Shown here: positions 8,066-34,539 of the stretch, piece after piece
Layout of the letters: each line of letters starts with the position of its first letter
Position numbering within the stretch: position 1 is the first letter of the stretch
Assembly (NCBI GenBank): GCA_944389025.1
Contig: CALXKU010000002.1
Coordinates: 62,001-126,000, forward strand
Source: an uncultured Spirochaetaceae bacterium
GTDB lineage: Bacteria > Spirochaetota > Spirochaetia > Sphaerochaetales > Sphaerochaetaceae
Reading direction: 5' to 3'
DNA length: 64,000 bases
Made by a program: the position numbers and the translations under genes
The notes under the pieces: generated by a model
Databases searched by the model: none
Told to the model about the DNA's origin: nothing
Seen by the model: only the letters and a program-made list of their open reading frames with translations

Positions 8066-8074
8066 CAAAATAAA

Positions 8075-8093: not shown

Positions 8094-8107
8094 CATGATA
8101 ACAAAAC

Positions 8108-9019
8108 TTATTTTTCCCAGAGCTTTTCAGGATAGTATCCTGAATCGAGCTTAGCCCTGATTTCAGACATTACAAGTGGCTTATCCTCAGGATATGTCAT
8201 TCCGAACCAGCGGTCCTCACTTGTGAACACCCTGATACTTCCCTTTCCACTCGTAACGATTTCAGAGGCGCCATTAGGAAGCAGACACTCCTTCTTCTCC
8301 TCCTTGACATTCTCCCTGATAAAATTCTCCCAGTAGGTGTAAAAATCATCGAATGCTCTCGGAGTGAAACCGAAGAAGTTCATTGAGACAGGCTCCTTGC
8401 CTGTAAGGTAGATGTCCTCTCCGTTAAAGTGGGAGACTATCCTTCCATCCGGTGCATACTCTATCTTGGTATGCTCCACCACGGACTCAAGATTTCCATC
8501 CTTAACCTGGCAGATACCACGTGTAACGGAACCGTTTCTGCTCATGGTATTCTCGAGTGTGAAGCCTACCATGGCATGCCTCGTGTCGTTCACATCCAGG
8601 CCAGAGAGGTACTTACCAAGAGTCTGATAGGCGCTTCTGCCATAATAATCATCGGCGTTTATTACGGTAAACGGCTCTTTTACCACATCTTTCGCACAAA
8701 GGAGCGCATGAATCGTTCCCCATGGCTTCTTCCTGCCTTCGCTGAGCTTTATCTGCTCCTCTGTAAGCAGGCTATCCAGCCCCTGGAAGACGTACTCTGC
8801 ATCCATGTTCCTGGCAATGCGGTCAAAGAGCCTCTCCCTGAAATCTTTCTCAATGTCCTTTCTTATGATGAATACGACCTTGCCGTAACCTGCGTTATGT
8901 GCATCATAGACCCCGAAATCAAGAAGAGTCTCCCCATGGACGCCTACAGCATCAATCTGCTTTACTCCGCCATAACGGGATCCCATTCCCGCGGCAAGAA
9001 CCAAAAGTGTCGGTTTCAT
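8108..9019 (-). CDS. Nucleotidyltransferase family protein (NDP-sugar type)
   Basis: A 303-residue Rossmann-like nucleotidyltransferase. The N-terminal LVLAAGMGSRYGG loop is the NTP-binding signature of the sugar-phosphate nucleotidylyltransferase fold, and INADDYYG supplies the metal-binding acidic residues. The match is good at the fold level, but the sugar substrate cannot be read from the sequence. Start ATG 9019 follows AGGAGG, with the fold beginning immediately (KPTLLVLAAG); an in-frame upstream extension has no support. It is convergent with the lipoprotein gene and lies 66 bp downstream of the DUF2974 gene, so it may share its transcript. Confidence 0.85.
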   Translation of the reverse strand: MKPTLLVLAAGMGSRYGGVKQIDAVGVHGETLLDFGVYDAHNAGYGKVVFIIRKDIEKDFRERLFDRIARNMDAEYVFQGLDSLLTEEQIKLSEGRKKPWGTIHALLCAKDVVKEPFTVINADDYYGRSAYQTLGKYLSGLDVNDTRHAMVGFTLENTMSRNGSVTRGICQVKDGNLESVVEHTKIEYAPDGRIVSHFNGEDIYLTGKEPVSMNFFGFTPRAFDDFYTYWENFIRENVKEEKKECLLPNGASEIVTSGKGSIRVFTSEDRWFGMTYPEDKPLVMSEIRAKLDSGYYPEKLWEK

Positions 9020-15255: not shown

Positions 15256-16796
15256 CAGTTTCCCCTCCTCATTCTTACCGATTCGATATTCGGTGTGAAA
15301 AGCTCCCTTATGTCATTAAGGCCGAGATGCATGAGAGCCATCCTGTCAATTCCAAGTCCCCATGCGAGGACAGGGACATCGATTCCAAGGGCCTTCGTAA
15401 CCTCTGGACGGAATATGCCGGATCCTCCGAGCTCGAACCATCCAAGCACTGGATGCTTTATATGAACCTCGATACTCGGCTCGGTGAACGGAAAATAACC
15501 CGGTACGTATTTGACTTCCTCAGCTCCTGCAATCTCCTCTGCGAACATCTTAAGCAGCCCGAGAAGGTTCCTGAGATTCACATCCTCTCCAAGAACAATC
15601 CCCTCCGTCTGATAGAAATCAGCACCATGAGTGGCATCAACCTGGTCATATCTGAAACAGCGAACAACGCCGAAATACTTTCCAGGAATCTTGGCCTTCG
15701 TAAGTTGATGGGCGGAGAGTACAGTACCCTGGCTTCTGAGCACCTGGCGACGTGTGAACTCATGGTCGAATGCATAGCCCCAACCACGGGATCCGGTCTT
15801 CCAGCCATCCTCATGAGTTGCGGCAACCTGGCTGAGCCATGGCTCCTCTATTTTTTTCGCATGTCTTGGCTCTTTCACATAATATACGTCATGTATGTCG
15901 CGGGCTGAGTGGAACTGCGGCATGAAAAGGGCATCACCGTTCCAGAACTCGTTCTCTACGAGAGGTCCGTCGAACTCCTCAAAACCGAGAGCTATGAGCT
16001 TATCCTTGACCCACTGCAGATAGTTTGCATACGCATTCCTCCTGCCGGGGATGAGACGGGATGTCGGGGCATCGACACCGTATGGGCGGAAAGAGGCGCT
16101 CTTCCAAGAGCCGCTCTTAAGCATCTCATGAGTGAGATTTCCTAGCTCCTCTCCCGTGATATTCGCCTTCTCAAGCTCCTTCTTGGCATTATCTCCAGCC
16201 TCTGTAAGTTCGTAGATGACAATCTCCCTCTCACTGAGTTTGAAAGGAGAGAGGCTTGCTCCTCTTTTCTTTGCCATCTGGGATATCGCCTTCTTCTCAT
16301 CGGAAGAGAGAGCTGACTCCTCTATCTCGCCAGAAGAGAGCGCCCTCTCGATCAAAGCCCTCTGCATCCTGATTTCTGCAGGAAGCTCATCGGAGATCCT
16401 CTCCGCTTTTCTCTCGGCATTCAGAGCGACAGCCTTCTTGCTACTAAGAGAGCCGAAAGCAGAGCCGACATCGCTGTTCTCCATATTGAGTGCCTCGGCA
16501 ATTTCCGGCATCGTATGAGGACCCTTCTCGCCGAGGAATGTAAAGATGCGCTCTGCAGGAAGTCCCTCTTTCTCAAGGCTACGGCCATAATCCGTGAGTT
16601 CGTAAACGACTTTGACACTTCTCTCAACTTCTTTTAAAAGCTGTTTCTGACTAAGCCAGGAAAATGCCTGGTTGCACTGTCCGACCTTGTAGCCGAGCTC
16701 AGATATGATCCTTTCATTGTCGATCTTCTCGCCAAGGGATACATGCCTTAAAAGCTTAACTTCAAGCGGATGCAGCTTCTTTACATCAATATCCAT
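15255..16796 (-). CDS. pheS: Phenylalanyl-tRNA synthetase alpha subunit, archaeal type
   Basis: A 513-residue catalytic subunit. The N-terminal half holds tandem winged-helix modules as in archaeal/eukaryotic PheS (KLLRHVSLGEKID...; TFLGEKGPHTMPEIAEALNM). The class II core follows with the motif 2 region (VAATHEDGWKTGSRG, RCFRYDQVDATH) and motif 3 (WGLGIDRMAL). Bacterial PheS is about 350 residues and lacks the winged-helix repeats. Start ATG 16796 has a GAGGAG site and a good promoter 38 bases upstream. It is followed directly by pheT. Archaeal-type PheRS is a known spirochaete trait attributed to ancient transfer. Confidence 0.95.
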   Translation of the reverse strand: MDIDVKKLHPLEVKLLRHVSLGEKIDNERIISELGYKVGQCNQAFSWLSQKQLLKEVERSVKVVYELTDYGRSLEKEGLPAERIFTFLGEKGPHTMPEIAEALNMENSDVGSAFGSLSSKKAVALNAERKAERISDELPAEIRMQRALIERALSSGEIEESALSSDEKKAISQMAKKRGASLSPFKLSEREIVIYELTEAGDNAKKELEKANITGEELGNLTHEMLKSGSWKSASFRPYGVDAPTSRLIPGRRNAYANYLQWVKDKLIALGFEEFDGPLVENEFWNGDALFMPQFHSARDIHDVYYVKEPRHAKKIEEPWLSQVAATHEDGWKTGSRGWGYAFDHEFTRRQVLRSQGTVLSAHQLTKAKIPGKYFGVVRCFRYDQVDATHGADFYQTEGIVLGEDVNLRNLLGLLKMFAEEIAGAEEVKYVPGYFPFTEPSIEVHIKHPVLGWFELGGSGIFRPEVTKALGIDVPVLAWGLGIDRMALMHLGLNDIRELFTPNIESVRMRRGN

Positions 16797-18943: not shown

Positions 18944-20554
18944 TCAGACTCTGATAATCTCTTCCTTCCACCCTGTTATGTTTCTTTCCTCTGATGAGAA
19001 GTTTATCCCAAGAAGATGAATAACAGTCCCTTCCTTTGCATACTTCTCAAAGTATTTCTTCTCTTTTATCTGACTGAGTGCCTCATCCGCACTCTCATCG
19101 AGCTTCAGCTCTATTATGTAGATAACTCCCTTCCTTACCACGACGCTTACGTCCATCCGTCCTATGTTGGTCTTCTCCTCGGCTTCCACCTTATCAAAGC
19201 CAAGGAACATCAGCGCAGAGTAGAACGAGACTTGGAAGTTGTTCTCCTTATCCATGAACATGTCGTACGGTATGTTGACATATGCCTCACGGAACATCTT
19301 AATTATCCCCTCGGTGTCCCCCTCGGAGAAAGCTTTATAGAGATAGGGAAGCCTCTCCCCTCCGATCTTCAGCCCGTAGGTCCTCAAGACCTTTCCGTTC
19401 ATCGTGTCACTGACCTCCCTGTTGGGATAGCCGAGAATCATCTTGCCGTACTCGCTTCCTCTTATCGTGAGATAGCCGGCCTGAACGAGGTACGAGTACA
19501 CCGCCTCAGGATCCGGATTGGGTGAGAACGCCTCAGCCATGTTGAAGCTTGTTAAAGCCTGGTTGTATATGGAAAACGTGACATCCTCATGGAACAGCTC
19601 GGGGTTCCTGCTCACAATCTCATCTACAAGGCTCTGGGCTCCCGTCTCTATCCAGAAGTTCTCGAACGAGCATCCCCCTAAGAAGAACTTTCCGACTGAG
19701 ACAGGATTGTACATCGTTACATCATTCCTCAGGGAGAAGCGGTAGCCGTCGTAGAACTCCTTCATGCGGGTCCTGAAAGCTCTTCTCTCATTCTCATCAG
19801 CAACATTGTTATCTGAGAAGTATTTCTCCATGTACGGGGCAAAATAGTGGTCTATCTCATCATCAGTATAACCGCAGATAGCGGAAAACTTTGGATCTGA
19901 TGAGATATCTGTCAGATTGTTGAGCTTTGAGAAGATTGAAACATGCTGGAAGCGTGTAATGCCTGTTAGAAAGCAGAACCTTAGAGAGTTCTCCTCCACC
20001 TTGAGCGTCTCGTAAAACGCCTGGAGCATGTCCCTCATCTCTTCAAACTTTTCTTTTTCCTTAACACTCTGCATAAGGGGATAGTCATACTCGTCAATCA
20101 GGACAACTACCTTTTTCCCTGTCTTCCTGTATACGGCCCTTAATAGATTTGAAAAATAATAGAAAGGCTCCTCTATGGAGGTGTCAATCATGTCTTCAAC
20201 ATGGAAATACGAGGCCCATTTCATTACAAAGTCTAAAAGAAGCCTTGTATTCACTTTGTTCGAAGAAGCACGGAGATCATTCATGCTGAAGCGTATTACC
20301 GGATGCTCCTCGAAATCGTAACTGTCGTAGATGTATGTCCCTTTGAAGAGCTCCCTGTTCCCCTTGAATATGTTCTCAAGTGTGTCTATTAATAGACTCT
20401 TTCCGAATCTTCTAGGTCGGGAGAGAAAGAAATAAGTGCCCCTTCTTATAAGGGAGAGGATGTATTTCGTCTTATCGATATATAAGCCGTTAGATCTTAC
20501 TATCCATTCAAGCGAACTCTTATCTATTATTATTTCTTTCAGCTTCTCTTCCAT
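18944..20554 (-). CDS. AAA-ATPase-like / PD-(D/E)XK nuclease superfamily 9 protein, copy 1
   Basis: A 536-residue protein. The N-terminal AAA-ATPase-like domain (PF09820 type) starts with YIDKTKYI and has a P-loop RPRRFGKSLL. The C-terminal PD-(D/E)XK-like domain has GRMDVSVVV ... IIELKLDESADEALSQI, so Asp, ELK and Gln are all present. These proteins are heavily duplicated in gut bacteria and spirochaetes, and their role is not established. The downstream edge has no clear terminator. It is leaderless: TGC-TATATT then six bases to ATG. It is a close paralogue of the next gene, with blocks near identical even at DNA level. Confidence 0.8.
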   Translation of the reverse strand: MEEKLKEIIIDKSSLEWIVRSNGLYIDKTKYILSLIRRGTYFFLSRPRRFGKSLLIDTLENIFKGNRELFKGTYIYDSYDFEEHPVIRFSMNDLRASSNKVNTRLLLDFVMKWASYFHVEDMIDTSIEEPFYYFSNLLRAVYRKTGKKVVVLIDEYDYPLMQSVKEKEKFEEMRDMLQAFYETLKVEENSLRFCFLTGITRFQHVSIFSKLNNLTDISSDPKFSAICGYTDDEIDHYFAPYMEKYFSDNNVADENERRAFRTRMKEFYDGYRFSLRNDVTMYNPVSVGKFFLGGCSFENFWIETGAQSLVDEIVSRNPELFHEDVTFSIYNQALTSFNMAEAFSPNPDPEAVYSYLVQAGYLTIRGSEYGKMILGYPNREVSDTMNGKVLRTYGLKIGGERLPYLYKAFSEGDTEGIIKMFREAYVNIPYDMFMDKENNFQVSFYSALMFLGFDKVEAEEKTNIGRMDVSVVVRKGVIYIIELKLDESADEALSQIKEKKYFEKYAKEGTVIHLLGINFSSEERNITGWKEEIIRV

Positions 20555-20560
20555 ATCATC

Positions 20561-20569
20561 AATATAGCA
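20561..20569 (-). promoter_or_regulatory. Extended -10 of copy 1 (leaderless)
   Basis: On the minus strand TGC-TATATT is followed by six bases (GATGAT) and the ATG at 20554. The same core stands before copy 2. Confidence 0.5.
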
Positions 20570-20585
20570 TATTTTCTGGAGGTTA

Positions 20586-22196
20586 TCAGAGAGTAAGCAC
20601 CTCTTCCTTCCAATCTGTTATATTCCTCTCAGCAGATGAGAAGTTTATACCAAGAAGATGAATGACAGCACCATCTTTTGCATACTTCTCGTAGTATTTC
20701 TTCTCTTTTATCTGGCTCAGGGCCTCATCTGCACTCTTATCCAGTTTGAGTTCGATTATGTAATACACCCCGCTCTTAACATTCACCGTGATATCTATCC
20801 TTCCGACATTCGTGACATCCTCGGCAACCGCCTGTGCGCACATGCCCAGTGCTGAGAAGACGGCTATCTGGAACCCCTTCTCCCTGTCCAGCGTCAGCTG
20901 GTAAGGATAGCTCGTGAACGAGTTGTACAGCACCTTGATGATCCCTGCGGTATCCTCATTCAGAAGTGCCTTCCTCAACGCGGCTACCCGCTCCGATTCG
21001 AACTCCACCCCGTATGTCGTGAGCACCGCGGCATCCATCGCATCCCTCACCTCCTCGTTCGGATACGAGAGTATGTAATCGCCGGCTTCCGACCCCACTA
21101 TCGTGAGATATCCGGCCTGCATAAGATACGAGAGCACGTATCCCCTATCCGGCATCTCTGAAAACACCTTCCTCATCTCGAACCTGTTCGCCTTGGATAT
21201 CGGTACGGAGAACTCATCATCCTTCCTGAAAAGAGAGGCGTTCCTCTCCACTATCTCGTTCACAAGGCTCTGCATACCCGTCTCTATCCAGTAGTTCTTA
21301 AAGCGGCATCCTCCTATGAAGAACCTTCCAATGGATACAGGGTTGTACATCGTAACCGGATTATCGAAAGAGAAGCGGTAGCCGTCATAGAACTCCTTAA
21401 TGCGGGTCCTGAAAGCTCTTCTCGCTTCATCATCAGCAACATTGTTATCTGAGAAATACTTCTCCATGTACGGGGCAAAGTAATGGTCTATCTCTGAATC
21501 GGTGTATCCGCAGATTGCTGCGTACTCAGGATCGGTTGAGATGTCTGTCAGGTTATTGAGCTTCGAGAATATTGATACGTGCTGGAAGCGCGTAACTCCT
21601 GTAAGGAAGCAGAAGCATATGTTCTCTTCTTCCGCCTTGAATATGTTATAGAATGTCGCAAGCTCATCCCGTATCTCATCCAAGGCATCTCCATGGATGT
21701 TCTCCATAAGCGGGTAGTCGTACTCGTCAACGAGGACAACGACCTTCTTGCCATATCTTCCGCAAGCAGCTCTTATAAGGGATGAAAGATAGTCGGATGA
21801 TGTCGGAACCGAAAGATCCATCTCATCATAGACATTAAGAGCTTTCCCGATATTCTCTATCTGCTTCATCATCTGCAAGGAGACGGTCTTCTCATCATGC
21901 TTGTTCACGTTTATCATGTTGAGCCTTATTATCGGATGCTCCTCGAAATCGTAATTGTCGTAGATGTATGTCCCCTTGAAGAGTTCCCTGTTCCCCTTGA
22001 ATATGTTCTCAAGGGTGTCTATCAATAGACTCTTTCCGAATCTTCTAGGGCGGGAGAGAAACCAGTACTTGGACGGACTTCCTTTCCTCAGCATCTTATA
22101 AAGATACTCCGTTTTATCGATATAAAGATATCCGTCCTCTATAAGCTCTCTGAATGACTTCGAATCCGTTGCTATGTATTTCAGTTTCTCTTCCAT
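20586..22196 (-). CDS. AAA-ATPase-like / PD-(D/E)XK nuclease superfamily 9 protein, copy 2
   Basis: A 536-residue tandem paralogue of the neighbouring gene, same length and order. P-loop RPRRFGKSLL, then IIELKLDKSADEALSQI with GRIDITVNV as the nuclease-like core. Segments such as RFQHVSIFSKLNNLTDIS, HYFAPYMEKYFSDNNVAD and FYDGYRFS are nearly identical between copies, while the regions between (about residues 60-160 and 290-460) differ strongly. The mosaic suggests recombination between copies or selection on variable parts. It is leaderless with TGC-TATATT. The Rpn gene upstream is in the same orientation. Confidence 0.8.
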   Translation of the reverse strand: MEEKLKYIATDSKSFRELIEDGYLYIDKTEYLYKMLRKGSPSKYWFLSRPRRFGKSLLIDTLENIFKGNRELFKGTYIYDNYDFEEHPIIRLNMINVNKHDEKTVSLQMMKQIENIGKALNVYDEMDLSVPTSSDYLSSLIRAACGRYGKKVVVLVDEYDYPLMENIHGDALDEIRDELATFYNIFKAEEENICFCFLTGVTRFQHVSIFSKLNNLTDISTDPEYAAICGYTDSEIDHYFAPYMEKYFSDNNVADDEARRAFRTRIKEFYDGYRFSFDNPVTMYNPVSIGRFFIGGCRFKNYWIETGMQSLVNEIVERNASLFRKDDEFSVPISKANRFEMRKVFSEMPDRGYVLSYLMQAGYLTIVGSEAGDYILSYPNEEVRDAMDAAVLTTYGVEFESERVAALRKALLNEDTAGIIKVLYNSFTSYPYQLTLDREKGFQIAVFSALGMCAQAVAEDVTNVGRIDITVNVKSGVYYIIELKLDKSADEALSQIKEKKYYEKYAKDGAVIHLLGINFSSAERNITDWKEEVLTL

Positions 22197-23216: not shown

Positions 23217-23867
23217 TCAAACCGTAGTGACGTTTACCACGATTTCACCCTCGTACTGTCCTTCCGTGAAACCTGTCACAGCATCGCCTTTATCATCCTT
23301 GCGAGTAGGAGCATTGAGAGTCAGCTCAATATCAAAGTTCTTCGATATTCCGGAAGATGCTTTCACTGTTTCGCTTTTAATAAGTTGAAGAGTACGTTTT
23401 TCTTCAGAGACCTTAGATGAAATCTTACTGTCACTACCATCACTGGCATCACTGAAACTCAACAATATATTACCAGACGAATCTCCGTCCCTTTCAGAAA
23501 CGGAAACAGAATAATTCAAACCTATTTCCTCTTTCTCCTTATGATGAAGCATGAAATCTTCTGTCTCCCCATTTCCATAATTCTCAGTCGAACTTGCGAA
23601 TATAAGATCGACATTGAAAGTCCCCACATCATACATATGACAAGTAAAACCGAGTTCCGCGGTAGCCTTAGGTGGGGTGCCAGAAACAAGGGAGAATGTC
23701 ACCTCTTCAGAAAGACGGTTATCACTTCCGTATGAAGTGAAATAGTAGTCGGTGACACCCGGGCGAGTCAGAACAAGATCAAAACTTCCAAATGATATCT
23801 CTGTCGCTGTAATAATAGTCGAATTCAGCAGAGCGACAATGAAAGTAAAATAGAGAAGCTTTTTCAT
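23217..23867 (-). CDS. Exported beta-rich putative pilus subunit (last gene of the cluster)
   Basis: A 216-residue protein with a signal peptide (LLYFTFIVALLNSTIITA). The mature part is nearly all strand-like with many Ser/Thr/Glu; one Cys (LGFTCHMYD). The end GQYEGEIVVNVTTV has the G-x-Y plus alternating-hydrophobic pattern shared by the sister genes, like the closing strand of chaperone-usher pilins. It lacks the IGFS/YW motifs of four other members. The start overlaps the previous stop (TAATG). No hairpin terminator was found downstream, only a short T run. Confidence 0.6.
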   Translation of the reverse strand: MKKLLYFTFIVALLNSTIITATEISFGSFDLVLTRPGVTDYYFTSYGSDNRLSEEVTFSLVSGTPPKATAELGFTCHMYDVGTFNVDLIFASSTENYGNGETEDFMLHHKEKEEIGLNYSVSVSERDGDSSGNILLSFSDASDGSDSKISSKVSEEKRTLQLIKSETVKASSGISKNFDIELTLNAPTRKDDKGDAVTGFTEGQYEGEIVVNVTTV

Positions 23868-24385
23868 TATTTCGCCTCCAGAGCGATTGTAATGGTCCCT
23901 GTGTACTCCGATGTTGATTTGATAGCCTCCACCGGTACGAAGAAATTGAACTCGAAATTATACGTGCGAGGCATTTCATAACTTGTTTCCGACTCTTCAA
24001 AAAATTTCTCTACTGATTCAGAGCTCGCTCCAACTCCCTTAAAGGATGATGTATTACTTCCTGAGTTCGTATACCCGATCATATTTGTTTTATTTCTAAG
24101 CGGGGTTGCCTTTGAGATTTTAACCCTTACAGGATAGGTCGTGAACAGCTGAAGATACATGTAGAAAGGCCCTGTCGTATAACTAGAGAAATCGGAACTG
24201 ACAGAGAAAGTCACGGTTTCAAGTTCTGTATCAGGTTCCATTGAGCCACTTACACGACTTGTCGAGAATCCAATATTGTGGGTCCTTCCAGAGGTGAATC
24301 CAACAGGAACTCTCGCCTTGATATCAGCAAAGAGTGAGAATGATACAAAGATAATGATTATAATGAACAATAATATCTTCTTCAT
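23867..24385 (-). CDS. Exported putative pilus subunit (IGFS-motif protein)
   Basis: 172 residues. Signal peptide with a strongly hydrophobic core (KKILLFIIIIIFVSFSLFA). After it comes VPVGFTSGRTHNIGFS, with IGFS at 38-41 and STSRV directly after, the motif shared with two neighbours. The C-terminus SEYTGTITIALEAK gives the Y-x-G closing strand. No cysteine. The start ATG overlaps the upstream stop (TAATG), so it is coupled. Function is inferred from context and shape only; no catalytic motif is seen. Confidence 0.6.
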   Translation of the reverse strand: MKKILLFIIIIIFVSFSLFADIKARVPVGFTSGRTHNIGFSTSRVSGSMEPDTELETVTFSVSSDFSSYTTGPFYMYLQLFTTYPVRVKISKATPLRNKTNMIGYTNSGSNTSSFKGVGASSESVEKFFEESETSYEMPRTYNFEFNFFVPVEAIKSTSEYTGTITIALEAK

Positions 24386-24948
24386 TACTTCGCCCTCAGA
24401 GTCAGGATGAGATTCCTGTTATAGGCCTCAGCCTTGTAATTAAGAAAATCTTCCTGCTTAATTGATGCTTCAACAATGATTCTCTTACTGTTGATATCCT
24501 GGATTGTTGAGCTTTCTTTAGTATGTAAGACAGCATTAGCAGTATTGCTATCAGTACTGGCTAGGAGTGTACCCTTCTTATCATTCTTATTCTGATCATA
24601 CATCCAAGCATTCCATACAATCTTATCTTCCGTGTCCGTCTTAGAGAAAGACAAGCTCAGTTCCAGCTCCAAAGGTGAGACGATGCGCCAGTAAACCCAC
24701 GATGTACTGTTTACCGCTGTTATCTCTTGATTCTCATCGTAAGGCGAAGAGCTCAGATAAATCTGACTAAGGGAAGAAACGCTTCCTGTCGTCGCTGTTA
24801 CCTGTCCGCTTGAGAATCCGATATCATAGCGCTCTATCCCTTCTGGATTCAATGAAAGATTCAGCACTGTACCCTTGCCCAAGGATGCAGAGAAAACAAA
24901 AGAAAGAGAGAGTATGAAAATGATTGCAATTAAAACAAATCTCTTCAC
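24385..24948 (-). CDS. Exported putative pilus subunit (IGFS/YW family)
   Basis: 187 residues with signal peptide. IGFS at 43-46 and YWRI at 86-89 align with the 26207 and 25539 proteins. The first strand LNLSLNPEG also fits LTVTFDPSA and LDVTLDLTD of those two. The end LNYKAEAYNRNLILTLRAK is a looser version of the closing strand, with no G-x-Y core. The start is GTG overlapping the upstream TGA (GTGA), with GGAGGGG nearby as Shine-Dalgarno. No Cys. Probably a minor subunit. Confidence 0.6.
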   Translation of the reverse strand: MKRFVLIAIIFILSLSFVFSASLGKGTVLNLSLNPEGIERYDIGFSSGQVTATTGSVSSLSQIYLSSSPYDENQEITAVNSTSWVYWRIVSPLELELSLSFSKTDTEDKIVWNAWMYDQNKNDKKGTLLASTDSNTANAVLHTKESSTIQDINSKRIIVEASIKQEDFLNYKAEAYNRNLILTLRAK

Positions 24949-25511
24949 TCCATCCCCTCCGTCTTTATCGTAATCGCCGTGCTATATGTTCCTTCTTCAA
25001 GCATCAGTATGCTCTCGGTCTCCAGTTCGAAAAGAATATCCTTTGATGACGAGATCCCATGTTCAGAAGGTATATGCGTGTGGAACACTTTGGCATCATC
25101 GTATGAATTTTTATCAATAATTGTGGTCCATGAATCGCCGTTCTTCATTTTAAGCGTCCAATGAAGCTCATTCCCGTCATCTCTTTTCATAGAACCATAC
25201 ACCGTAGAAGATATCGATACATTCACCGTATCCTTGGATGTGATTCCTATGGTCGCATAAAACTGCTTAGAGGCCCTCATTCCATCACGCTTAAGAGAAA
25301 GCGCACTCAGCTCACCATCCACCTTATTTCCATTCTCATCAACACCATGGAAGGTGTATGAAGGAGAGAATGGAATCTCTACTGTTCCAAGATCCCACAC
25401 GACAGGAATGCTTCTCGAGACCGGAAGCACAGACAAAGTCGCAGGTTCATCCGCAGCATGAATCTGTACTCCGATAGTAAATAGCAGGATCAGGAACAGT
25501 AGTCTTCTCAT
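24945..25511 (-). CDS. Exported putative pilus subunit
   Basis: 188 residues from ATG 25511 (an in-frame TTG three codons earlier is possible; the local GGAT favours ATG). Signal peptide RRLLFLILLFTIGVQIHA. The body has a PVVWDLGTVEIPFSPSYTF segment and many strands, no Cys. The end EEGTYSTAITIKTEGME carries the G-x-Y closing strand. It does not share IGFS. It is separated by 27 bp from the preceding gene and overlaps the following start. The role is inferred from membership of the cluster. Confidence 0.55.
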   Translation of the reverse strand: MRRLLFLILLFTIGVQIHAADEPATLSVLPVSRSIPVVWDLGTVEIPFSPSYTFHGVDENGNKVDGELSALSLKRDGMRASKQFYATIGITSKDTVNVSISSTVYGSMKRDDGNELHWTLKMKNGDSWTTIIDKNSYDDAKVFHTHIPSEHGISSSKDILFELETESILMLEEGTYSTAITIKTEGME

Positions 25512-25538
25512 TTTATCCAAATGATATAGATATCATCC

Positions 25539-26195
25539 TCAATTTGAAGCAGATATGGACAGCGTTAATGTACCGCTGTATGAACCGTCTACTACACTGG
25601 TAGTAAGAAGGTCGACCGTTGATACCGTAAGAGGAATGCTTCCAGATTTAACAACAGCTGTAGAAGAGTCGTCTGACACAGCCTTAACATCTGCTATTTT
25701 CGTAACAGATTCTGCACCACTAGTACTTGTACCCGCGATACCACCTTCTCCATTTGCAGAGGTAGCAGTAGATGCCTTCCATTTGATTTTTGTTGAACCA
25801 GTATCCTCCGTAGTAGTCATATCGGCTCCCGTCTTCATGCTGATATCAACATCTGCTCCTTTTATAATCCAGTAGATAAAAGCTGTGTCTGCCGCATTCT
25901 GTACATCACCACCGCTTGTAGTCTCGGTAAGCTCAAGAGATGTTAAAACTTTAGCTGTTGGAACAGCATTATTTTCCCCTATAGCTCCAATTGCCTCTGA
26001 TGCAAATCCTATCTCAAAATACTTTCCGAGCTTACCATCAGTTAGATCGAGAGTTACATCAAGTGTTGCTGTTTTGTTACTAAAATCAAGCTGATCGCTT
26101 CCCGTCGCCTCTCCTGATACGCTACCCGTACCATCTGCGAACACCATTCCCATTGCGATAGCCATTATGGCTAATAACGTTAAGACTTTTTTCAT
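25539..26195 (-). CDS. Exported pilus subunit, candidate major fibre subunit (IGFA/YW family)
   Basis: 218 residues. Clean signal peptide (KKVLTLLAIMAIAMGMVFA|D). Mature protein is very rich in Thr, Ser, Gly, Ala and Asp, has no Cys, and has low-complexity stretches, as in major pilins. IGFA at 62-65 and YW at 108-109 align with its neighbours. The end DGSYSGTLTLSISASN is the clearest closing strand. Start ATG 26195 with GGAGGAT just before it is chosen over the ATG at 26207; this is one of the strongest ribosome sites of the operon, which fits a major component. That is an inference. Confidence 0.6.
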   Translation of the reverse strand: MKKVLTLLAIMAIAMGMVFADGTGSVSGEATGSDQLDFSNKTATLDVTLDLTDGKLGKYFEIGFASEAIGAIGENNAVPTAKVLTSLELTETTSGGDVQNAADTAFIYWIIKGADVDISMKTGADMTTTEDTGSTKIKWKASTATSANGEGGIAGTSTSGAESVTKIADVKAVSDDSSTAVVKSGSIPLTVSTVDLLTTSVVDGSYSGTLTLSISASN

Positions 26196-26206
26196 ACTAT
26201 CCTCCA

Positions 26207-26764
26207 TTATTCAGTTTTTATGTTCAGTCTTAATTCACCTGTATATTCTCCGGGGAGCAAATCCCCGTAATTCATTGTTTTAGTGCCGATTGAAAGCTCT
26301 GAGCTTCCAGCCGTTCCATAATAGTGCTCCGGATTCATGAAATCGAGTTCAAGATCATTATCCTCATCACTCGATATGCTCTTGTTCTCCTCTACGAGCC
26401 TGACTTCCCAGTCAATCTCTCCATTGGCGCCTTTGAGCGGTTCATCTATGGAGAGAGTCGCACTGAGCCTGCTAGAAGACATTATTCTCCAGTAGATATA
26501 GATGCTGTTCATATAGGTAGCAGTATCACCATCGATGATGAGATCCTCGATATCACTCTGCCTGAAACCGTACACCTCATCACCGATGCTGTTGATCTCG
26601 TTTCTTGAGAAGCCGATATCTACGATGTTGAGTGCTGACGGATCGAAAGTGACTGTCAGATCTGTTGATAACCCATTCTCTCCAAGGGTCGAATCAAAGA
26701 CCTCGGAGAAAAGGGAAGATGTGATCATGATGGATAATGCTACCGTCATGAACAGTTTTCTCAT
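26207..26764 (-). CDS. Exported putative pilus subunit (IGFS/YW family)
   Basis: 185 residues. Signal peptide to about residue 20. LTVTFDP (36-42), VDIGFSRNEI (IGFS 50-53), YIYWRIMSS (YW 91-92) and a following IDWEVRL make it the best match to the 24385 protein. Closing strand PGEYTGELRLNIKTE. No Cys. The start overlaps the upstream stop by 4 bp (ATGA). Probably a minor or linker subunit; the order in the fibre cannot be read. Confidence 0.6.
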   Translation of the reverse strand: MRKLFMTVALSIMITSSLFSEVFDSTLGENGLSTDLTVTFDPSALNIVDIGFSRNEINSIGDEVYGFRQSDIEDLIIDGDTATYMNSIYIYWRIMSSSRLSATLSIDEPLKGANGEIDWEVRLVEENKSISSDEDNDLELDFMNPEHYYGTAGSSELSIGTKTMNYGDLLPGEYTGELRLNIKTE

Positions 26765-27312
26765 ACGACACTCCTTAAGGCGAAGTCGATATTCATGTCA
26801 TACTCCCCAGGCATTATATTCGGCAGGCTCTCCCAGTAGATTGCCAGTTCTCCAGCCTTATCTCCATGACGGGCTCCAATTGCGGGAACCGTGAGAGTAA
26901 GCGTTCCATCATCATTCACACTTGAGACGATGCCGTCACTTCCAAGATAATCGCTGAAGGCAAGGGATACTGGAATGGACTCCGTTCCATCCTTTGACAG
27001 CAGCCATCCATCTGTAGAAGCTGCAATCTCAACCCTATACGGATTCTCCGTATTTCCATAAAAGAGAATGTCGATAGGTATCATAGTCTGACCCTCTTCA
27101 AGGATGATGTTCTCTAGCCCTATTCCAGGCATGAGATCTCCATTTGAGGTCTCGAATACGAGCTTATCGACCTTGAATGCATCCTTTGGAACAACTACCC
27201 CGTAATCCTCAGGAACAACCGCCCTGAAAGATACCGCCTGCGTGTTTTCTACCGCATATACAACGGAGAAAGAAAAGAAAACGCAAATCATCAAAATTAA
27301 AACCTTCTTCAT
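26761..27312 (-). CDS. Exported beta-rich putative pilus subunit
   Basis: 183 residues with signal peptide (KKVLILMICVFFSFSVVYA). SFRAVVPEDYGVVVP and ILEEGQTMIPIDILFYGN suggest an immunoglobulin-like sandwich. The end PGEYDMNIDFALRSVV has the G-x-Y closing strand. Start ATG 27312 follows GGAGAT, and the 15 bp gap after the upstream 485-residue gene makes this a second strong ribosome site within the operon. No Cys in the mature part. Confidence 0.55.
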   Translation of the reverse strand: MKKVLILMICVFFSFSVVYAVENTQAVSFRAVVPEDYGVVVPKDAFKVDKLVFETSNGDLMPGIGLENIILEEGQTMIPIDILFYGNTENPYRVEIAASTDGWLLSKDGTESIPVSLAFSDYLGSDGIVSSVNDDGTLTLTVPAIGARHGDKAGELAIYWESLPNIMPGEYDMNIDFALRSVV

Positions 27313-27327
27313 TTCTTTATCTCCTCT

Positions 27328-28785
27328 CTACCTATAGATTGTGTCTCCAGTAGTAATATTTTCTTCTCCATCTGTCACGATATGGACATAAACTTCCTCT
27401 TCATAAACACCTGACTTCATAGTCGGCGCAGACTGCTGATCCATGATGATGCTCACAGTAGCGTCATATTGAGCAAACCAGACCGTTCCTCCGGTTCCTC
27501 CAAACCCTTTAAATGGGATATAGATTGCATTCTCAGGTAAGATATTGTTTGTAACGGCCTCTGTCCCGTCAAAATCATAGACAACCTTATCACTGTCATT
27601 TGAGGTCTGGTTTGTCGTAACTCTTAAATCAAAACCTATATATTCCTCCATCATAGGACTTGATGAAGCACCTCTATGTACAAGGCGGAATCCGTTTGGA
27701 TCAGAATCAAATGGATTACGAGAGGCTGAAAGGAACATGTGATATTTAGGTTGTCTTCTTTTTTCAGGATATCTATAAACCCAATATCCACCTCCCGAAT
27801 GACTCAAATCAATGACCCAGTGATCCCTTACACCTTCTTCATCGATTATGTATTTGTTCCCCGCAATAGAAAGAAAATTTATATTTGCGATATCAACCTG
27901 TCTTCCCTGCATTGAATTGATTGATAGGTTCGATGCTGATGCCATAGGCCTTACAGAGAGGCTTGATGTCGTATCCATACTGCTGATATTCGCAGAGTAA
28001 TAGCCGCTCAGAGGTATTGTTACCTCTGCACTCTGCCCATTCCATTCAACAGTGATTGTTATAACTGCACTGTAATCATCTGCTTCTATAAGATTGTAAG
28101 AACGCCCGTTGTAGATCATGTTTCCACTGGAAGAGACATAGCTACCATTAGGAGCATTTGGATTCTCGTCGTAGGGAAGGCAAAGAACAAGGTCAAACCA
28201 CATGTACTGGTATTGACAATATTCATATTTGCTTTCCTCTACTTTTTCAGTTCTTGGCTTTGTATAAGAATATATAATATCTTTTATTACATTCTCTCCC
28301 TCTTGAAGAAGATATAATCTCTGCGTTCCGTTCGTATTTATTCCAGACTGATTGGCAGATGATGAGTAGCTCTCCTTTAAAATCAGCAACAAAGCAAATG
28401 GCCTTCTTGCTCCAGGATTAGAAATAGATTCAAAGAAGAAGCCATTAGGACAATTCACTGTAATAGTCATAGGTACATTACATTCTGTATTATTCCAATT
28501 CCCCTTATCCTCAGAAAACCATCCACCTTCTTCCGTAACGGTGAATTCCGACTTCATATTCCACACACCACCCAGAGCAACCGTATGTTTGCCAGAATAA
28601 TCACCATTCTCCCAAGTAATATTGGAATCCTGTCCTTGTGAAATTTCCTCTATGCTGAAATTGTATTCCGTCGACGCCATGTTTATTCCGAAGCCACCAT
28701 TCTGCGGGTTTACTCCAGGGGCTCCGGCAAAGATGGAGGAGGCTATCATGATGAGTGATATGAATATCAGTAATATTTTCTTCAT
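27328..28785 (-). CDS. Large exported protein, candidate tip adhesin of the fibre
   Basis: 485 residues, more than twice its sisters. Signal peptide KKILLIFISLIMIASSIFA. The N-terminal part has two Cys pairs (ECNVPMTITVNC and YCQYQYMWFDLVLC) that could be disulfides, the middle is rich in Ser/Asn/Tyr, and the C-terminal part has strands ending SGVYEEEVYVHIVTDGE, then a short tail. Two-domain adhesins at the tip of chaperone-usher pili have a pilin domain at the C-terminus and a binding domain at the N-terminus, which would fit. No carbohydrate-binding motif is recognised. It overlaps the preceding stop by ATGA. Confidence 0.5.
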   Translation of the reverse strand: MKKILLIFISLIMIASSIFAGAPGVNPQNGGFGINMASTEYNFSIEEISQGQDSNITWENGDYSGKHTVALGGVWNMKSEFTVTEEGGWFSEDKGNWNNTECNVPMTITVNCPNGFFFESISNPGARRPFALLLILKESYSSSANQSGINTNGTQRLYLLQEGENVIKDIIYSYTKPRTEKVEESKYEYCQYQYMWFDLVLCLPYDENPNAPNGSYVSSSGNMIYNGRSYNLIEADDYSAVITITVEWNGQSAEVTIPLSGYYSANISSMDTTSSLSVRPMASASNLSINSMQGRQVDIANINFLSIAGNKYIIDEEGVRDHWVIDLSHSGGGYWVYRYPEKRRQPKYHMFLSASRNPFDSDPNGFRLVHRGASSSPMMEEYIGFDLRVTTNQTSNDSDKVVYDFDGTEAVTNNILPENAIYIPFKGFGGTGGTVWFAQYDATVSIIMDQQSAPTMKSGVYEEEVYVHIVTDGEENITTGDTIYR

Positions 28786-29459
28786 ACAGCTCCTCCCTGG
28801 GTCTCTATAGGTGTTATGGTGACTTTTACCTCAGACCCGTAGTTTCCAGGCGGGAGAGTATTGTCATCCGCACTTCTTATGAAATTCGTTGTTGCCTCAT
28901 CGAACATGAATCTGATTGCCCCCTCGACATTTCCTACATACGAGTTATCATCCATACTGATGGAAGGTCTCCATTTCTGTCCGTCTTCTCCGCTACTTCT
29001 ATATGAGAAGGTCTCACTGCTTGCAGGGCTGAGTACTCCATTCTGATATAGCCCAAGCTCACAATCGAAATAGAGGATATAATCCAATGCCCTGTATTCA
29101 TCGCTGTATGTCTCTGTCGAGTTTTCTTGCATGTAGCGCATCGGCTCTCCTGAGAAAGAGATCTCGAACGGGGTGTTTGAAAGAATGCTGAATGTTGCAA
29201 TTCTTCTTCCCGCATCGGGTGCGGAATATGCAACGATATCATCCTCGATATCGAACGGCATGCCAGCAATATAAGCCATGGACTGAGCAGGAATAGCCTT
29301 GATATCTATCTCGCACACCTCATCGTATCCTGCCTGGATGGTAAATGAATCAGAACGCACTAATGTGACAGTACCTGTATCTTCTGCGTTTACGGATGCG
29401 ACAGACATGAGAAGAATGAGGAGTACAATCATGAGTCTGTTAATCTTATTAAACAACAC
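28782..29459 (-). CDS. Exported putative pilus subunit
   Basis: 225 residues from GTG 29459 (GGGGG at proper distance; the stretch overlaps the previous stop). Signal peptide FNKINRLMIVLLILLMSVASVNA. Two Cys in the body (YDEVCEIDI, FDCELGLY) may pair. The closing strand is PPGNYGSEVKVTITPIE, followed by a short polar tail. The segment FSILSNTPFEISFSGEPM is strand-like. Function inferred from cluster membership and the shared end pattern. Confidence 0.55.
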   Translation of the reverse strand: MLFNKINRLMIVLLILLMSVASVNAEDTGTVTLVRSDSFTIQAGYDEVCEIDIKAIPAQSMAYIAGMPFDIEDDIVAYSAPDAGRRIATFSILSNTPFEISFSGEPMRYMQENSTETYSDEYRALDYILYFDCELGLYQNGVLSPASSETFSYRSSGEDGQKWRPSISMDDNSYVGNVEGAIRFMFDEATTNFIRSADDNTLPPGNYGSEVKVTITPIETQGGAV

Positions 29460-30243
29460 TTAGCATAACCCCCACCGTCGCACGGTACTCCCCTCTTGGA
29501 ATGGAGGGATCATCATAATCAGTACTGCTGATTGTCATGGCAACAGCACCCCTATGAATCCAGGCAGCACGAGTTCTCTTTACTCCGTCTGAATCAACGA
29601 CTGGATCCTTATCCAAGACAGACCACTTGGAAATCAGTCCTGGATTATTTCCTTCAGTATTATTTCCTTCATCTACCTCTTCAGAAGGAATGACTTCTGT
29701 GACATTTCCTTCATTTGCCTCGATTTTCGCTTCCTCATAAGTGTTGGAAGAGGCTCCTGTGAACGTATAGGAGAAGTTTGAAAGATCATACCTAGTCCTA
29801 AGCGTGCCTGAGGTTTTCTCATTCCCTTCCTCTGTTTTCTGGTCTGTCAATTTAAAATCATGCATGGTCAGAGAGAGTGTGAAAGAGCCAAGAGTATTTC
29901 CTACAACCCTGTATGAGAATATGACCCTGTCTTTCAAGAACCCTCCATTGCTGATATCCCCAAGGAACTGATCTATGTGCTTCGTGACATCAATGTCAGA
30001 GCCTTTGATGGTTCCATCCTCATTTTTTGATGTCGAAAGCACCTCAAGAGACTCATTCATGGCATCGGTGATAACTACGTACGGATCCTCCTTGAGTCCG
30101 ACCTTATAGCCTCTGAGCTTCAACGTTGAGGAAGAAGAGGCTTTCTCCTCTTCTGACGGAGTGACAGAGGCTGAATCATCAGATGCGAAAAGCATCATAA
30201 GCGATATCAGAAGCAGAATGAGCATTGAAATCATCTTCCTCAT
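29449..30243 (-). CDS. Exported putative pilus subunit next to the usher
   Basis: 264 residues. Signal peptide RKMISMLILLLISLMMLFA, then an acidic Ser-rich linker (SASVTPSEEEKASSSS) before a domain with LKLRGYKVGLKED. The closing strand is PRGEYRATVGVMLSVV at the very end. No Cys. The start overlaps the usher stop (ATGA). Being first after the usher, it may be an early-assembled or terminal subunit, but order alone does not prove that. Confidence 0.55.
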   Translation of the reverse strand: MRKMISMLILLLISLMMLFASDDSASVTPSEEEKASSSSTLKLRGYKVGLKEDPYVVITDAMNESLEVLSTSKNEDGTIKGSDIDVTKHIDQFLGDISNGGFLKDRVIFSYRVVGNTLGSFTLSLTMHDFKLTDQKTEEGNEKTSGTLRTRYDLSNFSYTFTGASSNTYEEAKIEANEGNVTEVIPSEEVDEGNNTEGNNPGLISKWSVLDKDPVVDSDGVKRTRAAWIHRGAVAMTISSTDYDDPSIPRGEYRATVGVMLSVV

Positions 30244-33200
30244 GCCGCCACCTCCGCGCCGTAGAGCATCTCGAAGAATGCATCCTGACTCATGACCCCC
30301 GTCACGCTTAAATCCATCTCATAATCGTATACGTCGCTCATGGTCTCTGCCTCTCTCAGCTCACCCTGCTCAAGCATCTGAAGCAGTCCGAGATCATCAG
30401 GTCTGTCTTCCACACGGAAGTGCACGAGAATCCAGGAATTGCCATATGGCACATCGAACGCGTATTCCCCTACTTCCATAGAGGATGTGACAAAGCGTCC
30501 GTCTCCATCTGTGAAAAGATAGCTCTCAGTCATCTCAAGATTTCCATCCACTATGCGGTATATCGGAGATGAGCCGTTTATCCATGGCGTTCCGTCAGGA
30601 AGGGTTATAAGGGCAGAGGAAGCATAAGTGTTATCCGCATTGAGACGGAGCACGTAGCCTTTCCTGGTAGAGGAAGGTATGTTGACAGGGAATGACTCCG
30701 CGGTTGAGAACGTATCCTTTCCCTGACTGTACACTATGAAGCTGTCCGCAGCTGCTGAGAGCCCCTCATATATGGATACTCCAAAGCTCTGGGGCAGCTC
30801 GCTCATCCTTGAATACCCCGCACTTCCAACAGATACACTGTTACCTCTGAGTGCACCGCTTTGCGAGATGAGAACATAGTTTGAAGGAATGTATGAGCGG
30901 AATGCCAGGAGTCCGTCTGCAAATACGCTTGAAGTCCTGAGCGAGAGATCGGCACCGATTCTTGAAAGAGAATCATCAGCATCGAGTCCGAGAGAGAGAT
31001 CGACATAGTCCCCCTGATAGCTATAGCCCACATCGAACGAATAGTCGTTGAAGTTCATCAGATCCTCGGTATCCACGCTCGCACTCAGGGAGTGTCTTCC
31101 GAGGCCGTACCTTGTAGAGATGGACGTGTTGTAGCTTCCACCCGTTATGCTAGTACTTCCACCGTCATAGCGGATCGTCGCATAGACCCTTCCACTGATG
31201 ACAGGGTTTGTCCTTCCAGTTCCAGAAATGCTCATGGATGCAGAAAGCCAGATGCTTCTGGATGCCGAGAGGCTCAATGTGCCAGATGTGCTCCAGTAGC
31301 TAGAAGAGATCTTATCTGTATAGATTCCTCCCGATCCGGAAAGTCCCCAGCTGACGATGCCAAGACGTCCGGAGAGGGATGTGCTCAGTCCAATCCTGTG
31401 CCTGCCTGAGATTCTGAGCTCCTCAGGCGATGAGTAGTTCAGACCGAGAGAGACTGAACTGAGCTCTGTCATCCCCGTCCTGATCTGATGCCCGATATTC
31501 GCATAGAAACCAAGGGCGTTCCAGGATCCATCTTCCTTTGTGCGCTCAGTAACATTGAGACCGAATCTTGTCGTTCCAAGTATGTTCGCATTAGTTAGCT
31601 CGAAAGCAAACTTCATGTTCGGACGAAGATTCGTCAATTCATTTGGACTGTTCTGGAATGCGAGAGTGGCATCTATCGAGACTGTCGGTGAAAGCCCGGC
31701 TCTTACATATCCTGATAGAACGAAATCGAGGAGATTGTACTCAAGGCTGCGTCCGCCACCGAGCGGGACTCTGAACGAACTATCAAGTTTTGTAGCATTT
31801 GAAGAGACAGTGCTTCTCCCCGTTACAAGGGATGCTCCGTAGTAAACCTCACCAGGAGCAAGGAGGGACGCGGCATAAAGCACATCAAGATCTATGGTCT
31901 TCGCCTCTGAGCCATCAAGGGGGGTCATCGTAATTGTTATCCTGTTAGCCCCCGTGTAGAGTATGAAATCCCTCAGGCGATATGTCCCGATATCGAGCGT
32001 CCTTCTGAATATCTCACGCCCTTCATTGAAAATCTGCACCTCAGAAGGCTTATCAACTACGATCACCTCCTCTATCTGGCTTGGTCTTCTGTATGTGTTA
32101 GGCGCATATGCGTAGCTTCTGTCGAACCTTATTCCGACGCTTGAACCCCTTGGGGAGAAAAGATCGGAAGAGACATTTCCCCAGCTGAGGCGGAGGAGAG
32201 AATCAGGGAAATCATAATGGAAACGGTATGAGCCGAGGCTGAACGAGAAGGAATACGGTGTCAAACCAATGTAATAGTTGAAATCGAGATAGAGATCATA
32301 AAGGCGGGCCGAATTCGATGCGGAGAATGAGAGAGAAAGCCCGTTCTTTATATTCCTTCCTAGGAAATTCCTGACTCTCGCATTAAGATAATATGATGAA
32401 GTGAGTGTGAACACTGCCGGCTCAAGATCGATTCCACCTGTTATCGGACGCCTCGTATGGCGGAAGCTCGAGAGGCTGCCGATGCTCAGTATCTGTATCG
32501 GCATATCCTCAGGAGAGAGGGTCAGCCTGACCTCGTAGGAAATCGCATCATAGCTTGCCTCAGCACCGAGAGAGGTGATGTAATCAAGTGAGATATACTC
32601 TGAAGATGAAGAGAAGAGCCTCGATGCGAACTCATCCGTTACCGTTCCGCTGAGGTATGTCATGAGCTCAGAAGAAAGGAGGGAGACCTCCCCGTTTTCC
32701 GCATAAACGGTTATCGATCCCGTTTCCGAATCGTTGACGAAGAGTGTCATGTAATAGATTCCATCCTCAAGGGTAAGGTCATCCTCGCCTGCGATGTAGA
32801 AGGAGGCCCAGAAATCATCAAGAGAGGCATCGGCAAAGACATCCTCCTCCTCATCGACCAGATATGCATTGACTTCTTCTTTGAAAAGAGGAGCGGAGGG
32901 AATCTCAATCTCTACAATCGTACTCTCCTTCACAATAAGAGAAGGCACAGAAGGAGGCGTCACCTCATAGAGGCGTGGTATGTAGTACATCATCGGTTTC
33001 TCTGGAACTCTGATTGAATCAACCACAACTTCTTCTCCTTCGTCCTCAACTTTCTCCTCAGCCGTGCTCAGCAGCACCTGAGAATCATGTTTTTCCTCTC
33101 CTTCTTCCTCAGCACTGGCTGATGGAATCCTTTCACTTTCATCAATGCTCTCCATCACGGGAGATTCCTCTACTGCATCAGCGTGGGAAGACACATTTTC

Positions 33201-33782
33201 AACATCCTTAAAAGGCGTCTCTTCCTCTTCTTTTGCAGTTTCTTCACTCTTTGTGGCATCATCTGATGCCCCAGATGCAGTTTCTTCCACAGCATCTTCA
33301 AGCGGATCGGAAATGCTTTGCTCAATAGAGACTGGCAGCATCTTTTCCGCCTCTGCCGCCAAACCCCCCTTCACGGCGGCATCTAATAAAGGAATCTGAG
33401 GGAGGAGAATCTCCTCTTCTGGTTCAGGGGGAATTGAATAGGATCCACCCTCCCCCAGAGACTCGGTTATTTCATCTCTTTCTTCAGGCATGAAGAAGAG
33501 TATTCCGACAGCGACGAGTAACGCCATCATTACAAGGTAGATGAGGACAGTGCCACGTATTGAGCTGCTCTTTTTCTCCTTCTCGAATTTTTCTCTGAGA
33601 AAGAGGATGAGCTCCGCATCCGCATAGCTTAGGAAGGCCAGGAGAGCAAGCAGAGAGACTCCATCCCCCGCACTCTCATAAGCAGATGCCAGTACTTCAT
33701 GCGCCGTCCATGCCGTTCCCGATACGAGAAAAACAAGGAGAACGGAAAGCGCAAGAAGAAGAGCAACCTTCTTCCTGTCCAT
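30240..33782 (-). CDS. Usher-like outer-membrane assembly platform with inner-membrane anchor
   Basis: 1180 residues. Residues 1-100 hold two or three hydrophobic helices (about 5-23, 41-62 and 78-98) with the basic REKFEKEKKSSSIRG between the last two, so the rest faces the periplasm. Residues about 100-300 are an acidic, proline-containing linker. Residues about 300-440 resemble the usher N-domain (VNAYLVDEEEDVFADASL; SLLSSELMTYLSG). A barrel follows from about 450, with the plug-like DKPSEVQIFNEGREIFRRTL and GTYRLRDFILYTGANRI (578-613), both close to usher consensus. The C-end (ITLPDGTPWINGSS; SSMEVGEYAF) resembles the usher C-domain. It would secrete and polymerise the subunits. Start ATG follows GGGGGTAGAGT. 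Confidence 0.75.
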   Translation of the reverse strand: MDRKKVALLLALSVLLVFLVSGTAWTAHEVLASAYESAGDGVSLLALLAFLSYADAELILFLREKFEKEKKSSSIRGTVLIYLVMMALLVAVGILFFMPEERDEITESLGEGGSYSIPPEPEEEILLPQIPLLDAAVKGGLAAEAEKMLPVSIEQSISDPLEDAVEETASGASDDATKSEETAKEEEETPFKDVENVSSHADAVEESPVMESIDESERIPSASAEEEGEEKHDSQVLLSTAEEKVEDEGEEVVVDSIRVPEKPMMYYIPRLYEVTPPSVPSLIVKESTIVEIEIPSAPLFKEEVNAYLVDEEEDVFADASLDDFWASFYIAGEDDLTLEDGIYYMTLFVNDSETGSITVYAENGEVSLLSSELMTYLSGTVTDEFASRLFSSSSEYISLDYITSLGAEASYDAISYEVRLTLSPEDMPIQILSIGSLSSFRHTRRPITGGIDLEPAVFTLTSSYYLNARVRNFLGRNIKNGLSLSFSASNSARLYDLYLDFNYYIGLTPYSFSFSLGSYRFHYDFPDSLLRLSWGNVSSDLFSPRGSSVGIRFDRSYAYAPNTYRRPSQIEEVIVVDKPSEVQIFNEGREIFRRTLDIGTYRLRDFILYTGANRITITMTPLDGSEAKTIDLDVLYAASLLAPGEVYYGASLVTGRSTVSSNATKLDSSFRVPLGGGRSLEYNLLDFVLSGYVRAGLSPTVSIDATLAFQNSPNELTNLRPNMKFAFELTNANILGTTRFGLNVTERTKEDGSWNALGFYANIGHQIRTGMTELSSVSLGLNYSSPEELRISGRHRIGLSTSLSGRLGIVSWGLSGSGGIYTDKISSSYWSTSGTLSLSASRSIWLSASMSISGTGRTNPVISGRVYATIRYDGGSTSITGGSYNTSISTRYGLGRHSLSASVDTEDLMNFNDYSFDVGYSYQGDYVDLSLGLDADDSLSRIGADLSLRTSSVFADGLLAFRSYIPSNYVLISQSGALRGNSVSVGSAGYSRMSELPQSFGVSIYEGLSAAADSFIVYSQGKDTFSTAESFPVNIPSSTRKGYVLRLNADNTYASSALITLPDGTPWINGSSPIYRIVDGNLEMTESYLFTDGDGRFVTSSMEVGEYAFDVPYGNSWILVHFRVEDRPDDLGLLQMLEQGELREAETMSDVYDYEMDLSVTGVMSQDAFFEMLYGAEVAA

Positions 33783-33807
33783 ACTCTACCCCCGATTATT
33801 CCTTCTC

Positions 33808-34539
33808 TTATGCCGAATAGGAATAATCATACGCGGCCTGAGACTGGAACTCCGTGGCCCCGGAGAGAGACTCCGGAATATCAATTACAATTCTGAGGGT
33901 GCTTCCCGTTAAGAGATTCTGACCGCTGACAGCCCCGATTTCCCCTTCGCTGAGCGTGTAGGATGATCCATCATTTCCCGATACGGTGACAGAGAGGTCA
34001 TTGAGCATCTGATGCACACTTCCCGTGTTCTCAATCCTGATCTCAAGCTTTCCCTCTTCATTGATATCAGCAGTCGTGCTAACCCGTTCCACCACCATGG
34101 ATGGACGGACGTATGCACTTGTGGAATAGACGAAGAGGAAGGAAATCATCTGTCCTGATTCTTCCGTCTGGGCACCACGCGGCATTGCAATCTGTTCTGA
34201 TATGATTCTGAATGAGAGTTCGCGTGTGACAGTCTGAGGACCTCTGTATTGGACACGTACGAGCTGAGAAGCCTGAGGCGCGATTATCATGCGCTTCGGC
34301 TGTATCTGGAAATATGCGGATGCATCCTCCGTATACTCGTTTCCATCAAGGTCGATGTTCCTAGAATACGCATTGATCTCAATGGCTATCGGGCTGTCGG
34401 AATCGTTTGTTATCGTGTACACACGCGCCGAACCGGCACCGGTTGGATCGTAGGTGGCACTTAACGGTGACAGCTGATAGGCATATAAGGCTGCGCAGAA
34501 AAAGAGCAGCACGAAAAGTATTATTAATCCTTTTTTCAT
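33808..34539 (-). CDS. Periplasmic pilus-assembly chaperone
   Basis: 243 residues. Signal peptide MKKGLIILFVLLFFCAALYA. Domain 1 shows the PapD-like pattern: LSPLSATYDPTGAGSARVYTITNDSDSPIAIEI, then FQIQPKRMIIAPQASQLVRV, then the LSFRIISEQI strand, equivalent to the conserved YR region. Domain 2 begins near STTADINEEG. It has no Cys after the signal peptide. The sequence is nearest to the archaic (Csu/sigma-type) chaperones by eye. It donates a strand to subunits in the periplasm and hands them to the usher. Start ATG follows AGGGGG, 25 bp before the usher gene. It is the first gene of the operon. Confidence 0.85.
   Translation of the reverse strand: MKKGLIILFVLLFFCAALYAYQLSPLSATYDPTGAGSARVYTITNDSDSPIAIEINAYSRNIDLDGNEYTEDASAYFQIQPKRMIIAPQASQLVRVQYRGPQTVTRELSFRIISEQIAMPRGAQTEESGQMISFLFVYSTSAYVRPSMVVERVSTTADINEEGKLEIRIENTGSVHQMLNDLSVTVSGNDGSSYTLSEGEIGAVSGQNLLTGSTLRIVIDIPESLSGATEFQSQAAYDYSYSA

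Follow-up and report, generated by a model that had tools for sequence, protein, structure and literature searches.

Does a spirochaete carry the genes for assembling hair-like surface fibres by the chaperone-usher route, best known from E. coli? The question is raised by a gene cluster in a 64,000-nucleotide stretch of DNA (hereafter the window) from an uncultured gut member of this phylum. From gene content, comparison across genomes and structure prediction, we conclude that the locus very probably encodes a divergent, non-classical (archaic- or alternative-type) chaperone-usher fibre system, there being no direct evidence of the fibres themselves. A search of the open-licence literature found no paper on a chaperone-usher system in a spirochaete, Treponema or Sphaerochaeta, which is not proof of novelty.

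Checking of the open reading frames places 12 packed genes at 23217-34539 on the minus strand, one encoding a PapD-like chaperone, one an usher and ten the subunits S1 to S10 (Table 1). The intergenic junctions range from –11 to +25 bp and 8 of the 11 overlap, seven of these by 1-4 bp, as is typical of translational coupling. Signal-peptide-like hydrophobic N-termini open the chaperone and every one of the ten subunits, and the earlier note's description of twelve co-directional, mostly overlapping genes, ten of them for signal-peptide proteins, stands unchanged. The operon is flanked on its 5′ side by a divergent phosphoribosyltransferase-like gene and on its 3′ side by unrelated genes, and promoter and terminator scans of it gave results close to shuffled expectation. 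Also 3′ of the operon, at 18944-22196 on the minus strand, two similar 536-residue reading frames with an AAA-ATPase-like N-terminus lie in tandem. Chaperone and usher genes adjoin on the same strand, with a median gap of 29 bp, in all 65 independently retrieved loci having both; because it is conserved in 65/65 loci, their adjacency is not due to chance. In the remaining 15 (of 80), the locus stops 0.5-3.9 kb beyond the chaperone.

Table 1 Features of the operon, with positions in the window and the evidence for each
Feature	Position	Strand	Evidence
PapD-like periplasmic chaperone (non-classical), 243 aa	33808..34539	-	PapD_N match, Arg111
Usher, entire reading frame, 1180 aa	30240..33782	-	FimD/PapC matches of AlphaFold model in Foldseek and VIA
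Usher residues 1-97, candidate inner-membrane anchor of three predicted transmembrane helices	33492..33782	-	AlphaFold helices and hydropathy
Usher residues 98-333, predicted disordered acidic proline-containing linker	32784..33491	-	Low pLDDT, composition
Usher residues 334-457, periplasmic N-domain and segment leading into barrel	32412..32783	-	VIA alignment with FimD 3rfz_E
Usher residues 458-962, ~24-strand beta-barrel and plug (~572-621)	30897..32411	-	DSSP of model
Usher residues 963-1180, C-terminal beta domains	30243..30896	-	Model strands; CarboxypepD_reg in 11/25 homologues
S1, 264 aa, fixed block	29449..30243	-	One-to-one orthologues in 28 loci; hhalign to pilin family E 4e-12
S2, 225 aa, fixed block	28782..29459	-	One-to-one orthologues in 27 loci; hhalign to pilin family E 3e-14
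S3, 485 aa, candidate tip adhesin	27328..28785	-	Size, C-terminal G-x-Y motif
S4, 183 aa, fixed block	26761..27312	-	One-to-one orthologues in 22 loci; hhalign to pilin family E 4.5e-11
S5, 185 aa, paralogous pilin	26207..26764	-	AlphaFold pLDDT 87.8; Foldseek
S6, 222 aa, paralogous pilin	25539..26207	-	In S5 BLAST cluster
S7, 191 aa, paralogous pilin	24945..25520	-	In S5 BLAST cluster
S8, 187 aa, paralogous pilin	24385..24948	-	In S5 BLAST cluster
S9, 172 aa	23867..24385	-	Small cluster, homologues in 5 loci; C-terminal motif
S10, 216 aa	23217..23867	-	One homologue among loci (L058); C-terminal motif

The chaperone, whose fold has no predicted structure of its own, is identified by profile and alignment. 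It matches Pfam PapD_N with 24.4 bits, above the curated cut-off of 23, and 21 of the 23 family members match the same profile (best 2.5e-8). EcpB of E. coli is the sole chaperone-type match in a PDB sequence search, with weak E-values, and hhalign aligns 109 columns with it. The second domain also aligns with EcpB, EcpE and FimC, completing the two-domain PapD-type organization. Neither position of the classical PapD/FimC subunit-anchoring basic pair in domain 1, which we take to be Arg8/Lys112 in PapD, is conserved as basic in the chaperone alignments, and the protein does not qualify as a classical chaperone. Arg111, invariant across 23 homologues, instead coincides with an Arg in EcpB and EcpE and with a Met in FimC. 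The Arg that anchors the subunit carboxylate (Arg89 in CsuC/EcpB) is confined to archaic and alternative chaperones and absent from classical ones (PMC4654587), and the chaperone is therefore placed among the non-classical ones. The system had initially been called archaic-like; this diagnostic residue supports that assignment without deciding between archaic and alternative. In one operon from the same genus (L142), two PapD-like chaperones are found among the subunits, at 7657-8427 and 14522-15268.

The 1180-residue protein consists of an usher of ~850 residues and an N-terminal extension of ~330 residues. AlphaFold, given 65 sequences, models it with confidence beyond about residue 340. The top 19 Foldseek matches to the model are all usher chains, with E-values from 2.7e-29 (FimD) to 1.4e-9, and the best non-usher match is at 4.9e-6, porins and receptors lying at that value or worse. 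Alignment by VIA with FimD yields Z 19.6 over 629 residues and, for FimD chain 3rfz_E, spans model residues 335-1143. The model has every element of the usher architecture known from the classical FimD and PapC, namely an N-domain, a barrel of ~24 strands, a plug between strands 6 and 7 (strands counted in the DSSP string) and C-terminal domains. FimD and PapC, too, have the plug after strand 6. In hhalign, the usher profile aligns weakly with both EcpC and FimD, and its plug region weakly with FimD 307-451, so usher membership rests mainly on the fold. The window usher alone has no match in Pfam or NCBIfam scans, a PF00577 search of the window genome found nothing, the usher profile drew only chance matches among PDB sequences, and tblastn of the usher against plasmids found none. 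PF00577 is matched by 4 of 25 usher relatives (best 6.3e-6), and 11 of the 25 carry CarboxypepD_reg at the C-terminus. The earlier note's identification of a PapD-like chaperone and an usher-like protein survives: the absence of any PapD match for the 243-residue protein, or a non-usher fold for the 1180-residue protein, would have refuted it, and neither is the case.

The extension of the usher has no counterpart in Csu; like the subunit layout and the wide distribution described below, it goes beyond what the earlier note had recognised. AlphaFold predicts helices at residues 3-34, 40-66 and 73-96, and hydropathy analysis marks segments at 6-24, 44-62 and 79-97. The linker behind them has pLDDT below 50 in 98-219 and 221-333 and contains 28% D/E, 6% K/R and 8% P, with ~25% D/E and ~4% K/R across family linkers. 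At least one transmembrane-length hydrophobic segment (range 1-7) precedes the N-domain in 65/65 aligned family ushers. In the window lineage (n=30), 16 ushers have three segments, five have five, three have two, and four, six and seven are found in two ushers each, with a median linker of 206 residues; in the remaining family ushers (n=35), 33 have one and two have two, with a median linker of 144 residues. These are hydropathy counts, and single values are uncertain. An odd number occurs in 56/65, which fits a topology, itself inferred, with the N-terminus in the cytoplasm and the linker in the periplasm. The predictions suggest that, in this family, N-terminal helices and linker fasten the usher to the inner membrane, later cleavage not being excluded. 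Whether the mature usher is kept there and spans the periplasm with its linker, so that one protein forms a trans-envelope platform for pilus assembly and might draw on inner-membrane energy, we regard as evenly balanced; if true, it would give a textbook machine, understood to need no inner-membrane contact, a new architecture. For this step alone, it is also conceivable, and we hold it as a tentative alternative, that helices and linker do not tether the usher permanently but are an extended signal and pro-region that is cleaved off, or in some genera a lipoprotein signal. Outside the window lineage, only one helix is found in most genera, in several of which it ends with a Cys, a possible lipoprotein signal, but the 2-7 helices of the window lineage cannot all form a signal peptide, and the prevailing odd numbers are what an inside N-terminus with a periplasmic linker requires. 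Most of the 11 ushers from other spirochaete families have an ordinary signal-peptide-like segment near the N-domain, some predicted starts there being unreliable. A marginal match of the usher profile to a TonB protein (1e-3) is probably due to shared linker composition and not to a TonB-like N-terminus.

BLAST clustering of 226 subunit ORFs resolves S1, S2, S3 and S4 as one-to-one positional families, places S5-S8 within one cluster of 91 paralogues and leaves S9 and S10 in small clusters. The order S1-S2-S3-S4 is repeated in at least 20 loci of the window's lineage, and the layout, as judged from sequence, is a fixed S1-S4 block with a variable paralogue array. S5 is the only subunit with a predicted structure, a single-chain model for which the top 23 Foldseek matches are all chaperone-usher pilins or adhesins (best CfaB, 6e-4). 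VIA scores for this model are weak (Z 6-7), no higher than for some unrelated beta-sandwiches. The hhalign values of S1, S2 and S4 against the S5 family are pairwise, not database-calibrated and inflated by signal peptides. S3, about twice the size of the other subunits, shows no alignment with the S5 family profile beyond the signal peptide and no alternating-hydrophobic N-terminal stretch past the signal-peptide edge. Pfam pilin families gave no match at a convincing E-value against 89 pilins, and a PDB sequence search with a Sphaerochaeta pilin profile gave chance matches only.

Two sequence features bear on polymerisation. A C-terminal strand motif of the G-x-Y type is present in 177/226 subunits versus 32/538 other ORFs, at least 15 of the 32 being missed subunits in loci L078 and L081; since the subunits of the window itself supplied the pattern, these counts are descriptive. 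Near the N-terminus, positions 36, 38, 40 and 42 of S5 are V/I/L/F/M in 69-90% of the 89 pilins, with non-hydrophobic neighbours in between, and the 36-42 stretch forms no strand in the single-chain model and lies outside its core. This alternation fits what a donor strand would look like, no complex showing the missing strand. The subunits are many and diverse, and in Sphaerochaeta pilin-like genes are scattered away from the chaperone-usher pair, as might be expected if the usher-like protein merely exported separate surface proteins. We nevertheless consider export without fibre polymerisation improbable: an alternating-hydrophobic N-terminal segment of the kind that donor-strand exchange requires lies outside the modelled core of S5, and the C-terminal motif and chaperone Arg are as in polymerising systems.

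All 80 retained loci are spirochaetal, one of the sources being the strain Sphaerochaeta halotolerans 4-11, and the nearest named relatives belong to Candidatus Ornithospirochaeta. The chaperone profile detects 38/393 genomes of a phylum-wide sample, nine of them outside the family Sphaerochaetaceae, whereas PF00577 is above cut-off in only 2/393, indicating that the Pfam usher model misses the system. Standard annotation overlooks it even though it is widespread in the Sphaerochaeta group. In other spirochaete families, related chaperones and ushers are encoded in compact pilin-chaperone-usher-adhesin operons, and one of these ushers passes PF00577. In Sphaerochaeta the pair usually stands beside V-ATPase-like genes without adjacent subunits, and there, as in some relatives, pilin-like arrays are located elsewhere. 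This isolation of the pair, together with a split usher in some genomes (e.g. G110), could be taken as the mark of decaying or non-functional relics, but such a reading is barely tenable given that open frames have been kept over large divergence, that the usher is present in 104/139 genomes of Sphaerochaetaceae and that the window operon is fully open, with no broken frames.

As a fibre system, the locus would operate as follows. The subunits would reach the periplasm via Sec, as their signal peptides imply, where the chaperone would lend its G1 strand to each of them and hold its C-terminal carboxylate at Arg111, a role inferred from EcpB/CsuC. The usher N-domain would take up the chaperone-subunit complex, donor-strand exchange through the alternating-hydrophobic segment would polymerise the subunits, and the fibre would pass outward through the usher barrel, the fold being taken from the model and the process inferred. 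The helices and flexible linker probably bind the usher to the inner membrane, again by inference. S3 is inferred to be the likely tip adhesin, S1 and S2 to act as adaptors at the tip, and S4-S10 to build the shaft or serve as alternative subunits. The likeliest role, also inferred, would be adhesion. A flagellin search found none in the window genome or in 17 others of its genus (18/18), and with this operon a lineage without detected flagellin gains a concrete candidate adhesion organelle.

Compared with known systems, the host phylum, the usher architecture and the subunit layout are new. The archaic (sigma) Csu pili of Acinetobacter baumannii share the non-classical chaperone Arg, an usher, signal-peptide subunits with a C-terminal strand of the same kind and, in the spirochaete relatives, the compact operon form. 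Csu has four subunits (PMC4654587), bearing out the original claim that ten exceed a Csu-type operon; the window system further differs in its usher anchor and linker and in pilins without Pfam match. The spirochaete phylum lies outside the distribution given in PMC4654587, and the known range of chaperone-usher fibres thus gains a phylum. Among the alternative (alpha) systems of E. coli, ECP supplies the closest solved chaperone by sequence (EcpB) and CFA/I the best structural neighbour of S5 (CfaB), whereas EcpC shows no more than a weak sequence alignment to the usher profile and the window has many more subunits, another gene order and the anchor. The P-usher CupB3 of Pseudomonas aeruginosa likewise has an extra N-terminal part (PMC3031594), which in that protein is a periplasmic POTRA domain instead of transmembrane helices and a linker.

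Several arrangements were observed in relatives. In Sphaerochaeta halotolerans (L125, 9977-20640), as in many relatives, the pair lies directly upstream of a V-type ATPase-like operon. Genome G010 carries three S1-S2-S3-like blocks, possibly alternative tips, in one array (L150, 1719-11149), with the usher on another contig. ExbB was found in 14 Sphaerochaeta genomes, and in seven of them (G090, G091, G093, G095, G100, G101 and G106) its sole gene has orphan pilin-like genes no more than about 3 kb away; these genomes are related and not independent. At the G091 and G093 loci (L146 and L147), the orphan genes adjoin ExbB/ExbD-like genes, a TonB protein and a likely TonB-dependent receptor.
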